Part shown: positions 38,962 to 42,828 of the stretch, piece by piece
Layout of the letters: the number at the start of each line of letters is the position of its first letter
How positions within the stretch are numbered: the first letter of the stretch is position 1
Made by a program: the position numbers and the translations under genes
Notes under the pieces: model-generated
Database searches by the model: none
What the model was told of the DNA's origin: nothing
Seen by the model: only the letters and a program-made list of their open reading frames with translations
Assembly: GCA_031082225.1 (NCBI GenBank)
Contig: JAVHLG010000027.1
Location: 1-52,870 of the forward strand
From: Desulfovibrionaceae bacterium
Lineage (GTDB): Bacteria > Desulfobacterota > Desulfovibrionia > Desulfovibrionales > Desulfovibrionaceae
Reading direction: 5' to 3'
Length of the DNA: 52,870 bases

Positions 38962-39431
38962 ATGGTCACGACGACGATTCCGGGCCTGGGGGACGTGTCC
39001 CTGGCCCATCTGGTCCTGGACTACAACGGCACCCTGGCCAGGGACGGGGCGCTTCTGCCCGGGGTGGCCGAACGCCTGGCGGCCCTGGCCGCGATCCTGA
39101 CCGTGCACGTGATCACGGCGGACACCTTCGGCACGGTGCGCTTAGCCCTGGCCGGACTCCCGGTGGCGGTCACGGTGCTGCCGCCCGGCCCCGAGGACGC
39201 GGCCAAGCTGGCCTTCGCCCAGTCCCTGGGGCTTTCGGCCACGGCCGCCGTCGGCAACGGCCGCAACGACCGGCTCATGCTCGGGGCCTGCGCCGTGGGT
39301 TTGGCGGTCATCGGCCCGGAGGGGGCCTGCCTGGACGCGGTGCTGGCCGCAGACGCGGTTTTCACCGACATCCGCGACGCCCGGACGTCTTTTCGGCCCC
39401 GGGCCGACTCACGGCCACCCTGCGGGTCTAA
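38962..39431 (+). CDS. HAD-superfamily phosphatase-like gene with apparent 1-nt frameshift
   Basis: The ATG follows GGGAGGGACG. The first 140 residues read as a small soluble P-type-ATPase-like HAD protein: motif I LVLDYNGTLARDG, motif II HVITADTFGTV, motif IV AAVGNGRNDRLML, then AADAVFTDIRDA. Past about 39381 this frame continues 230 residues as meaningless antisense of the PHP gene. In the next frame the expected C-terminus appears at once (DVFSAPGRLTATLRV then TAA at 39431). Adding one base at about 39381 would give DA-x-DVFS and a protein of about 156 residues. The break is a real mutation or a sequencing error; coordinates given are for the repaired gene. Confidence 0.7.
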
Positions 39432-40272
39432 AGCCCTCGCGCCGCCGCGCGAGGTCCGCAAGCAGCCCCTCGGGCACGAACAGCCCTCCCCGCCCGCGAC
39501 CCAGGCGAATCCCCGGCTTGGCCGCGCCGTGAAAATCCGAACCGCCCGTGACGCCCATGTCCAGTTTTTTCGCCAGGGCCAGGTATTCCCGGGTCTGGGC
39601 CTCGCTGTGCTCGCTGTAGCGGGCCTCGATGGCCATAACGCCCATCTCCCGGTATCCGGCCACCAGCCGTTCCAGGGACGCCCCCTTTTCGCGCAGTTGG
39701 TAGGGATGGGCCAGGACCGGAATCGCGCCCTCGGCCCGAAGCAGGCCCACGGCCCGCTCCATGGGCATCTTGGTCTTGGGCGCGTAGGCTGCCCCCCCGG
39801 CCCCGAGATAGCGCTCGAAGGCCTCGCGCAGGGTCTTGACCGCCCCTTTGCGCAACAGGGCGGCGGCGATGTGCGGCCGTCCCACGGCCCCGGCGGCCAG
39901 TTCCAGCACCTCGCCGTAGTCCAGCCCGATCCCCAGCCCGGCCAGCCTGTCCAGGATCAGGCGGTTGCGGTCATGGCGCTTCTCGCGCGCCCTGGCCAGC
40001 ACGGCCCCGAACTCGCCCGGAACCTCGGGCACGAACAGCCCCAGAAGATGCAGGGTCCGCTGCCCGTCCGCCACGGATAGCTCCACCCCGCCCACGACCT
40101 GCACGCCGAATTGACGGCCGGCGGCCATGGCCTCGGGCAGGCCGTCCACGGTGTCATGGTCGGTTATGGCCACGGCGGACAGGCCAGCCTCGGCGGCCAG
40201 CCGCACCAGTTCGCGCGGGGTCACGGTGCCGTCCGAGGCCGTGGTGTGGGTATGCAGATCGATGCCAGGCAT
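39409..40272 (-). CDS. PHP-domain phosphoesterase (YciV/TrpH-like)
   Basis: The 287-residue protein has the PHP metal-site motifs: DLHTHTTASDGTVTP at residues 5-19, AITDHDTVDGLPEA, GVELSV, AHPYQLRE and GGSDFHGAAKPGIRLG. E. coli YciV (RNase AM) is a 5'-3' exonuclease on short RNAs and on pAp-type substrates, and this is the best comparison. The gene is convergent with the HAD gene and overlaps its repaired 3' end by 23 bp. Confidence 0.88.
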   Translation of the reverse strand: MPGIDLHTHTTASDGTVTPRELVRLAAEAGLSAVAITDHDTVDGLPEAMAAGRQFGVQVVGGVELSVADGQRTLHLLGLFVPEVPGEFGAVLARAREKRHDRNRLILDRLAGLGIGLDYGEVLELAAGAVGRPHIAAALLRKGAVKTLREAFERYLGAGGAAYAPKTKMPMERAVGLLRAEGAIPVLAHPYQLREKGASLERLVAGYREMGVMAIEARYSEHSEAQTREYLALAKKLDMGVTGGSDFHGAAKPGIRLGRGRGGLFVPEGLLADLARRREGFRPAGWP

Positions 40273-40453
40273 CCGGACACGCTATCCGGTCCCGGCCGCG
40301 TTGGGAAGCGCGCGCACCCTCTCCGGGGACTTCACCCCTGCGGCCCGCGCCCACGGCCTTGACACCGGCCGCACGGGCACTAGTTTCTTGTCCACTTTGG
40401 CCGTCTGGCCGCAACCTTTGAACCCAATTCAGGGTGGGCAAAGAAGGAGTCCC

Positions 40454-41683
40454 TTGTCCCGCATCGACAACGCGCATGTCGCCACCATCGAACTGTTTCT
40501 GTCCTGGCGCGATGAGGCCGTCCGCCACGAAGAGCGCTACCTGGCCCGCAAGGTCAACCCCTGGCGGGACGTCTTTCCTCCCGGCTTTCGGGAACGGATC
40601 GAGGGTCTGGGCGTGGGCGACGCGGCGTCCTGCGACTACGCCCCGGGCGAGGCTCTCCCGGAGCGCCGCGACGACGCCGTCATCCGCCTGCCCCGCCGCG
40701 CCTTCGCATCCAAAACCGTGGCCGGACGCCGCATCGAACCGCGTCTGAGCCGCTTCTATCCGCGCGGGATGTTCACGGGGCTTGTCGGCGTCTTTCCCCA
40801 GGACGCACGCCCGGCCCGCATCGTGGCCATGGACGCAGACGTCCTGACCCTCGACCTGAACCATCCCCTGGCCGGGAGGCGGCTGACGCTTGCGGCCACG
40901 GTGCGCCACATCGCGCCCAAGGTCTCGGACACGGGCGGGCATCTGTCCTGCTGGCTGGAGGAGATCACCGACTACGGCCCGGGCATGCAGTCGCCCCTGC
41001 CGGGTCTGCCCACGGACTTTTTCTCCGGCGACGCCCTGTCGCGCCCCGACGACGCGCCGGACGCCGCCTTCTATGCCGCCCCGCGCCTGACCGGGCACAT
41101 CGACGCCCAGGCCGACGCCCTGCTGACCGATGGCTACGCCGGATACCTGCGCCCGGGCATGGCCGTCCTGGACCTCATGAGCTCCGTGGCCTCCCACCTG
41201 CCCCTGGAGACGCCTTTCGCGCCGCCAGGGCTGCATGTGACGGGCCTGGGCCTCAACGACCGGGAGATGGCCGCCAACCCGCGTCTGGCCGCGCACGTGG
41301 TGCACGACCTCAATGAAAACCCGGTCCTGCCCTTTCCGGATGCCGCCTTCGACGCCGTCTTCCTCAGTCTGTCCGTGGAATACCTGACCCGGCCCCGGGA
41401 GGTGTTCGCCCAGTGCGCCCGGGTGCTCAAGCCCGGCGGCAGGCTGTGCGTGGGGTTCTCCGACCGCTGGTTTCCGCAGAAGGTCACGGCGGTGTGGCCG
41501 GACCTGCATCCCTTCGAGCGTGTGGGCCTGGTCGCGGCGTGTGCCCGCGACACGGGATCGTTTGCCGATCTGGCCACCACCAGCATCCGCAACTGGTGGC
41601 GGCCCACGGACGACCCGCACATCCGCCAGACCCTAACCAGCGACCCGGTGTTCGTGGTGACCGGGAAACGGACCGGGACATGA
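40454..41683 (+). CDS. FKBP/SlyD-like domain fused to SAM methyltransferase
   Basis: Translation most likely begins at a TTG with AAGGAG 4 nt upstream, giving 409 residues starting SRIDNAHVATIELFLSWRDE. Residues 100-150 carry FKBP-type SlyD signatures: FYPRGMFTGLVGVFPQDARPARI and, at 133-144, the hallmark LDLNHPLAGRRL. Residues 215-409 are a class I methyltransferase: AVLDLMSSVASHLP replaces the usual GxG loop, then GLGLNDREMAANP, VLPFPDAAFDAVFLSLSVEYLTRPREVF, RVLKPGGRLCVGFSDRWFP. The C-terminal half resembles Methyltransf_11 proteins of unknown substrate. The fusion suggests folding-coupled or proline-adjacent modification, which is inference only. Confidence 0.75.
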   Translation: MSRIDNAHVATIELFLSWRDEAVRHEERYLARKVNPWRDVFPPGFRERIEGLGVGDAASCDYAPGEALPERRDDAVIRLPRRAFASKTVAGRRIEPRLSRFYPRGMFTGLVGVFPQDARPARIVAMDADVLTLDLNHPLAGRRLTLAATVRHIAPKVSDTGGHLSCWLEEITDYGPGMQSPLPGLPTDFFSGDALSRPDDAPDAAFYAAPRLTGHIDAQADALLTDGYAGYLRPGMAVLDLMSSVASHLPLETPFAPPGLHVTGLGLNDREMAANPRLAAHVVHDLNENPVLPFPDAAFDAVFLSLSVEYLTRPREVFAQCARVLKPGGRLCVGFSDRWFPQKVTAVWPDLHPFERVGLVAACARDTGSFADLATTSIRNWWRPTDDPHIRQTLTSDPVFVVTGKRTGT

Positions 41684-41824
41684 GCCCTTTGTCCAGCCTG
41701 TCCCGGGCATGATGAAATGACGACAGCCCCCCGGTTTCTTAAAAACCAGGGGGCTGCGCCGCCTGTCCCCTTCGGGAAAAAAACGCGTGAACCGTCCGTG
41801 CGCGGCCCGGCCGGGCCTGCCCGG

Positions 41825-42703
41825 CTATCCCTCCCGGGCCTCCCGGACCACCTCCATCAGGTATTGGCCGTAATCGTTTTTGAGCATGTCCGCGGCCAGA
41901 TGCTCCAGGGTGTCGGCGTCGATGTAGCCCATGCGGTAGGCGATCTCCTCGATGCAGGAGACCTTGACGCCCTGGCGGTCCTGCACCACCTGGACGAAGC
42001 TTGCGGCCTGGTGCAGGGATTCGTGGGTTCCGGTGTCCAGCCAGGCGTAGCCGCGTCCCAGAAACTCCACCTTGAGGTCGCCGCGCCGCAGGTAGGCGTT
42101 GTTGACGTCGGTGATCTCAAGCTCGCCCCGGGGCGAGGGCGCAAGGTTCGCGGCGATGTCCACCACATCGTTGTCGTAGAAATACAGTCCCGTGACGGCG
42201 TATTTGGACTTGGGCCGCTCGGGCTTTTCCTCGATGCTGATGACGTGATGCTTGGCGTCGAACTCCACCACGCCGTAGCGTTTGGGGTCGCGCACCTTGT
42301 AGCCGAAGACGATGCCGCCCTTGACCAGCTTGGCCGAGCGTTGCAGCACGGTGGCCAGACCGTGGCCGTGGAAGATGTTGTCCCCGAGCACAAGGCACAC
42401 GGAGTCGCCGCCGATGAATTCCTGCCCCAGGATGAAGGCCTGGGCCAGCCCCTCGGGGCGCTCCTGCACCTTGTAGGACAGCGACAGGCCGATCTGCGAG
42501 CCGTCGCCGAACATCTCCTGGAAACGCGGCAGGTCCGTGGGCGTGGAGATGATGAGAATGTCCCTGATTCCGGCCAGCATGAGCACGGACAAGGGATAAT
42601 AGATCATGGGCTTGTCGTAGACGGGCAACAGTTGTTTGCTGACCACCCGGGTGATGGGATAGAGTCTGGTGCCGGAGCCGCCGGCCAGGATGATTCCTTT
42701 CAT
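41825..42703 (-). CDS. rmlA: Glucose-1-phosphate thymidylyltransferase
   Basis: The 292-residue protein opens [39 protein letters not shown], the RmlA signature, and contains [19 protein letters not shown] and [20 protein letters not shown]. It makes dTDP-glucose from dTTP and glucose 1-phosphate, the first step to dTDP-rhamnose and other dTDP sugars in surface polysaccharides. The ATG is preceded by GAGGG. rmlB, rmlC and rmlD are not in this window, so it stands apart from the rest of its pathway. Confidence 0.95.
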
Positions 42704-42828
42704 GCGGTGATCCCTCGTTTCAGGTCTGTGGGCCGCCTGGAAAAGACGCGCTGATCGGCGCGGCGGCCGGGCGAATGTAAATGCGCTTGGCGCAACTTGC
42801 AACACGCAAACCACAAAGGCGGACAACC

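Follow-up and report, generated by a model that had tools for sequence, protein, structure and literature searches.

Genomic context of the fusion gene

The window analysed here is a 52,870-nucleotide stretch of a Desulfovibrionaceae genome (assembly GCA_031082225.1, contig JAVHLG010000027.1), and on its plus strand it carries an FKBP-methyltransferase fusion gene at positions 40454–41683. The frame is open across 409 codons, from a TTG start to a TGA stop, and the 409-residue product has a SlyD/FKBP-type domain (residues ∼6–159; 40469–40930, plus strand) followed by a class I SAM-dependent methyltransferase domain (residues ∼197–409; 41042–41680, plus strand). A Shine-Dalgarno sequence, AAGGAG (40444–40449, plus strand), lies 4 nt 5′ of the TTG. 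Homologues start at the corresponding position, on ATG, GTG or TTG, behind a Shine-Dalgarno sequence at comparable spacing, and together these features support the TTG start. A 488-aa open reading frame on the minus strand overlaps the gene, but the plus frame is favored because its protein is conserved. A first-pass annotation, made from the sequence alone, had called this an FKBP/SlyD domain fused to a methyltransferase with a TTG start; the reading frame, profile searches, an AlphaFold model, Foldseek and the homologues all bear this out, and the fusion is real, beyond chance.

The fusion gene stands alone in the window and is flanked on both sides by minus-strand genes, named by reading as a PHP-type gene upstream (39409–40272) and an rfbA-like gene downstream (41825–42826). 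An inverted repeat, CAGCCCCC...GGGGGCTG, lies 3′ of the stop codon (41724–41756, 17-nt spacer) and is a possible terminator. A promoter and terminator scan gave no promoter-like site and one terminator-like site on the minus strand, neither outcome rising above shuffles; the terminator pattern took loops of 3–8, so the 41724–41756 repeat lay outside its reach.

Distribution of the fusion

Near-full-length matches to the protein are present in 14 of the 39 genomes searched (its own included) at 43–100% identity, a count in which the G027 match starts at residue 41, with its first part in another frame, and from which the pieces in G033 were left out. Related loci were then sought with the peptide pattern Wx[DE]LH[EP]FER; 193 candidates were confirmed and 80 loci were kept. 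By their titles and tree labels these belong to Desulfobacterota, Pseudomonadota, Chlorobiota and Nitrospirota, the majority as metagenome-assembled genomes, so that the survey of taxa proposed in the annotation places homologues in at least four phyla. A sample of 228 genomes from the phylum to which G062 belongs yielded three full-length fusions, two of which had been reached already, and five matches to the methyltransferase only.

Apparent loss of the isomerase pocket in the SlyD-type domain

Residues 136–141 of the fusion protein read NHPLAG, the loop found in SlyD/FKBP prolyl isomerases. SlyD matches were weak in a single-sequence search (E 0.005), and a profile of 76 fusions matches Thermus thermophilus SlyD over positions 6–159 at E 1.1e-8. 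The AlphaFold model of the fusion protein has a mean pLDDT of 95.6 and a pTM of 0.94, the latter suggesting a fixed arrangement of the two domains; residues 1–177 modelled from a single sequence, without an alignment, gave a mean pLDDT of 32, too low to inform. Foldseek returned SlpA as the top match to the full model (4dt4, E 6.2e-10), with SlyD at ranks 4–6. An FKBP fold in residues 1–200 had been set beforehand as the point on which the annotation would stand or fall, and by both profile and structure the fold is there. Contrary to these searches, the Pfam FKBP model matches none of the 76 fusions at E ≤ 0.01.

The domain thus shares its fold and NHPLAG loop with SlyD and SlpA (FkpB), but differs from them in being joined to a methyltransferase, in escaping the Pfam model, and in its pocket. 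We take Asp23, Tyr63 and Phe128 of T. thermophilus SlyD to be prolyl-isomerase pocket residues. When these were mapped over the 76 fusions, by profile alignment rather than structural overlay, the Asp23 equivalent is Asp in one fusion, the Tyr63 equivalent is Tyr in one, and the Phe128 equivalent is Phe in two and Tyr in one; at least one of the three is kept in four fusions, and none in the window protein. The equivalent of Tyr13 is Phe in 59 of the 76. Five other residues (R38, D39, R100, P120 and R122) are invariant in all 76 fusions, and H25, W37, Y102, D134 and H137 are nearly so.

Because the pocket residues are not conserved, whereas certain polar residues peculiar to the domain are invariant (R38, D39, R100, R122), we infer that the FKBP domain has been repurposed; judging from the alignment, it more probably recognizes a substrate than isomerizes prolines. 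The clear SlyD fold with its NHPLAG loop would also suit an active bifunctional enzyme, in which a SlyD-like isomerase or chaperone unfolds the substrate or turns a proline for the methyltransferase; this we consider highly improbable, as 72 of the 76 fusions keep none of the Asp23, Tyr63 and Phe128 equivalents, although the FKBP domain may still bind as a chaperone without isomerase activity. The lack of conserved pocket residues also weakens the earlier idea that the protein couples folding or proline recognition to methylation, though the domain may bind peptides without isomerizing them.

A methyltransferase domain with a DLMSS loop

Methyltransf_11 (PF08241) matches the window protein at E 5.5e-12 and matches all 76 fusions. 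The AlphaFold model, Foldseek and VIA-align agree on a Rossmann-type methyltransferase fold, the best VIA-align match being Hvo_0019 (Z 14.2, 191 residues, rmsd 3.1). The fold matches are class I methyltransferases, with the fiftieth entry still at Z 11.9, and therefore give no substrate; the VIA-align rows are mainly methyltransferases, so the absence of FKBP domains among them carries no meaning. Assignment to UbiE/MenG or another named methyltransferase equivalog was rejected, the best NCBIfam score being 31.5 bits where 327 are required, with none of the 23 listed models reaching its cut-off.

The segment VLDLMSSVASHLP (residues 238–250) occupies the position at which class I methyltransferases would have their glycine-rich SAM loop, a site that we located by the motif I pattern we take to be E/DxGxGxG. 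That motif is absent, and LDLMSS (residues 239–244) stands in its place. In the replacement as a whole, LDLMSSVASHLP (residues 239–250; 41168–41203, plus strand), none of the 76 fusions departs from D240, L241, M242 or H248, and DLM is also present in all 18 FKBP-less relatives that were read. On this sequence evidence the DLMSS-type loop is the mark of a wider methyltransferase family; the loop in place of GxG reported in the annotation is real, and what was described there as unusual is the rule in this family. The fusions thus share their fold and later motifs with class I methyltransferases such as Methyltransf_11 and UbiE/MenG-like proteins, but have DLM(S/G/A)(S/G)... where those have the glycine-rich loop, and score far too low to reach the cut-off of any of the 23 listed NCBIfam models. 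Beyond the loop, E271 and N275 are invariant among the 76 fusions and D285 and N287 nearly so; W348, H352 and F354–R356 are invariant by construction, being part of the search pattern.

These residues bear on whether the domain is an enzyme at all. A pseudo-methyltransferase, serving as a structural or sensor protein without SAM binding, would account for the non-canonical loop and for Pfam matches of the window protein that start only after it, at residue 256 or later. However, the invariance of D240, E271 and N275 and near-invariance of D285 and N287 are as expected of an enzyme, and SAM- and SAH-bound methyltransferases are among the fold matches, so we give this explanation very little credence. 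A different rival accepts the enzyme and makes the FKBP domain only a lid, the substrate being a low-molecular-weight thiol, a metalloid, a lipid or a quinone. Small-molecule enzymes are indeed among the nearest methyltransferase profiles and folds (UbiE/MenG, MitM, SpnF and phosphoethanolamine methyltransferases), but class I fold matches are silent on substrate, and peptide N-terminal methyltransferases appear among the VIA-align rows too.

Sister types and phylogeny

Among the 18 FKBP-less relatives, three are stand-alone methyltransferases (the DLMSS type, ∼210–225 aa) and 15 have a C-terminal extension bearing a CP(Y/H)C pair (∼290–320 aa). By reading, both types share with the fusions the core motifs FY..PR.V.H.D, DLM and GLG.N..E, but no FKBP domain was seen in either. 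The extension type was found in Desulfobacterota, at loci L106–L116 and L118–L121.

In the tree, one branch (support 97/97) sets 78 fusion rows (the 76 found by pattern plus L104 and L105) apart from the other two types, and another (support 93/91) sets apart the 15 CP(Y/H)C-extension rows; the tree is midpoint rooted, its bootstrap was unsettled, and it contains two long-branch rows. Two Chlorobiota rows cluster with Pseudomonadota, as one Nitrospirota row does with Desulfobacterota, which we read as horizontal transfer; the fusion has probably spread in part by this route among bacteria with dissimilatory sulfite reductase. Since a related core has a Cys-pair extension instead of the FKBP domain, the family suggests swappable recognition modules on one methyltransferase core. 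Such FKBP domains and Cys-pair extensions resemble modules for recognizing proteins, which argues against a small-molecule substrate.

A conserved leader in Desulfovibrionales

The fusion gene is preceded by a gene-specific leader of ∼30 nt, GAACCC-AATTCA-GGGTGGGCAAAGAAGGA (40420–40448, plus strand), that abuts the Shine-Dalgarno sequence. In the leader alignment it includes an inverted repeat forming a 4-pair stem (40422–40425 with 40432–40435, plus strand). Allowing up to three mismatches, the leader pattern is present in 8 of the 39 genomes. In the set of 199 genomes from the order it has 22 matches, never more than one per genome and each time before the fusion; the reversed pattern has no match in the same 199 genomes. 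Twenty-one of the 22 matches are directly upstream of a matched fusion, and the 22nd (G732) is followed by the start of the fusion frame, where the contig ends. The pattern is thus carried by 21 of 59 fusion holders, and reading added six more leaders, two carrying an inserted base (G026, G701) and four short of one A (G844, G812, G800, G814), for at least 27 of 59; this is a lower bound, as the upstream regions of 22 holders were outside the reading. The leader is absent from ten holders that were read (G704, G780, G822, G719, G024, G756, G027, G034, G004 and G006). Loci with the leader are L002–L007, L009, L010, L024–L033, L124, L125, L128 and L130–L132.

Across 23 leaders the core is 96% identical, a figure that is partly by construction because the leaders were chosen by a pattern fixing much of the core; the 10 nt upstream are 53% identical and the 50 nt further upstream 26–28%. 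The stem is ACCC/GGGT in 20 of the 23 and ACTC/GAGT in the other three. This inner stem is 100% paired, and one of its four pairs varies, two of the 17 rows having UA in place of CG; an outer stem (columns 13–17 with 37–41) was 75% paired and was rejected. The covariation signal for both stems jointly is thin, the score being reached by 3 of 500 shuffles and the number of both-side pair changes by 226 of 500. Free-energy z-scores of three leaders range from −0.5 to 0.2. An Rfam search of 40200–40520 gave no match on the leader at E ≤ 10, and two lncRNA families matched elsewhere in that interval (E 0.61 and 0.85), far under their gathering scores. These observations would suit either an RNA hairpin or a DNA operator, with the insertions and deletions leaning slightly to RNA. 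The leader is a candidate RNA switch or operator, a sharply defined putative regulatory element found before one gene only.

Association with dsrA

The genome from which the window comes has dsrA, and so do most of those holding the fusion. For the 80 loci we tested 50 holder genomes, 28 with titles naming no Desulfobacterota group (or no group at all) and 22 others, and a dsrA match was obtained in 47 (42 above the curated cut-off, and 5 partial ones at E 1.1e-48 or better). It was not detected in G039, G062 and G064 (0.9 Mb) among these 50, nor in the holders G316 and G418 of the Chromatiales sample and G647 of the Gammaproteobacteria sample described below. In control genomes the dsrA model matches 8 of 14 at E 0.001 and none of the 14 above cut-off.

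Two broader samples show the association; all p values are from Fisher tests that ignore shared ancestry. Among 197 Desulfobacterota genomes (completeness floor 90%, dsrA threshold E ≤ 1e-60), 31 have a match to the fusion protein at E ≤ 1e-50, and dsrA is present in 30 of these versus 72 of the 166 others; where the match extends over both domains, the figures are 12/12 versus 90/185 (p 4e-4). The other 19 matches comprise 15 of the extension type, all dsrA-positive, two fusion-like genes with interrupted upstream frames, both dsrA-positive, and two stand-alone methyltransferases, in dsrA-positive G178 and dsrA-negative G194. With the extension type dsrA-positive too, the link may belong to the methyltransferase core of both types rather than to FKBP alone.

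The second sample holds 274 Gammaproteobacteria and is centred on G050, a chosen holder; its name and that of the Chromatiales sample were inferred from the sample centre, a Thiocapsa. Here dsrA is present in 17 of 18 fusion holders (15 above cut-off) versus 75 of 256 other genomes (p 4e-8), and dsrA is absent from the three genomes with only the methyltransferase, of which one was identified by reading and two from the length of the frame. The 147 Chromatiales genomes show no contrast (36/38 versus 97/109, p 0.52). Of the 92 genomes with dsrA in the Gammaproteobacteria sample, 17 carry the fusion; as most dsrA genomes are without it, it does not belong to the core Dsr factors. The fusion thus appears to track dissimilatory sulfur metabolism in an accessory rather than a core capacity.

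Gene neighborhoods

The neighborhood was rejected as a guide to function; the neighbors are mostly not sulfur genes. Genes were called with a simple caller of our own, and 150 of 151 selected adjacent ORFs were scanned (the scan took ORFs of 60–900 aa and left out locus L025, which belongs to the genome of L004). The commonest Pfam families among the 150 are LuxR-type HTH (9), HD_3 (6), DUF2867 (6), Rhodanese (4) and MoCF_biosynth (4), and no Dsr family is among the 25 commonest Pfam and NCBIfam families. In wider clusters at the 80 loci, with names given by reading, we found SDR family proteins (15), PAS proteins (12), LolD-type ABC proteins (11), pyridoxamine-oxidase-like proteins (11), lipocalins (9), photolyases (8) and CFA synthases (6). 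The PAS-type gene is the next gene upstream in nine of its 12 loci (L040, L043, L055, L062, L066, L078–L080, L082, L086, L090 and L091). A sulfur-gene neighborhood was observed at one locus, in a Chlorobiota metagenome-assembled genome (L059:7261–13196), where the fusion is followed on one strand by a rhodanese-like gene (so named by reading, with NCBIfam matches of the MoeB/MoeZ kind), a YeiH-like gene, sat, aprB and aprA; the last three score above their cut-offs and the YeiH-like gene below its own.

Some of these neighbors, the lipocalin, photolyase and CFA synthase, read as lipid or stress genes and would suit a small-molecule substrate. There is also a precedent in green sulfur bacteria, where a small thiol is methylated: PMC6282198 describes NmbA (CT1040) of Chlorobaculum as making N-methyl-bacillithiol, the synthase being a stand-alone methyltransferase reported in all Chlorobiaceae genomes and in Bacteroidetes, Acidobacteria and Firmicutes. 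By that description NmbA differs from the fusion in its build and in its spread over taxa. The small-molecule alternative remains strong, even if we hold it possible rather than probable.

A proposed role for the fusion protein

We favor, with a probability of about one half, a SAM-dependent methyltransferase with a dsr-linked accessory role, in which what was once a SlyD-type FKBP domain serves as a fixed module for recognizing or capping the substrate. The FKBP domain, which retains its fold and NHPLAG loop, lacks the isomerase-pocket residues and is marked by invariant polar residues, would present a substrate, most likely a protein or peptide, to the methyltransferase. The latter would bind SAM through its DLM(S/G/A)(S/G) loop and then methylate what is presented, an accessory function in bacteria that possess the dissimilatory sulfite reductase pathway; the substrate may itself be tied to sulfur metabolism. 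In part of the Desulfovibrionales, expression would be controlled through the short leader conserved next to the ribosome-binding site. If this is correct, an FKBP fold has been turned from an enzyme into the recognition part of a methyltransferase, and the resulting protein tracks dissimilatory sulfur metabolism over at least four phyla.

No description of the fusion, its function or the leader was found in the open-access literature, as represented by titles and the starts of abstracts, with few subscription journals among them, and we know of no methylation step in the dissimilatory sulfur pathway. A more specific version, which is quite unlikely as a whole, would have the dead-isomerase FKBP domain grip a segment flanked by proline in some protein of the sulfur pathway while the DLMSS methyltransferase methylates it, with the mini-leader controlling synthesis in Desulfovibrionales. 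A candidate target would be the C-terminal arm of DsrC, which we take to contain both a proline and a lysine.
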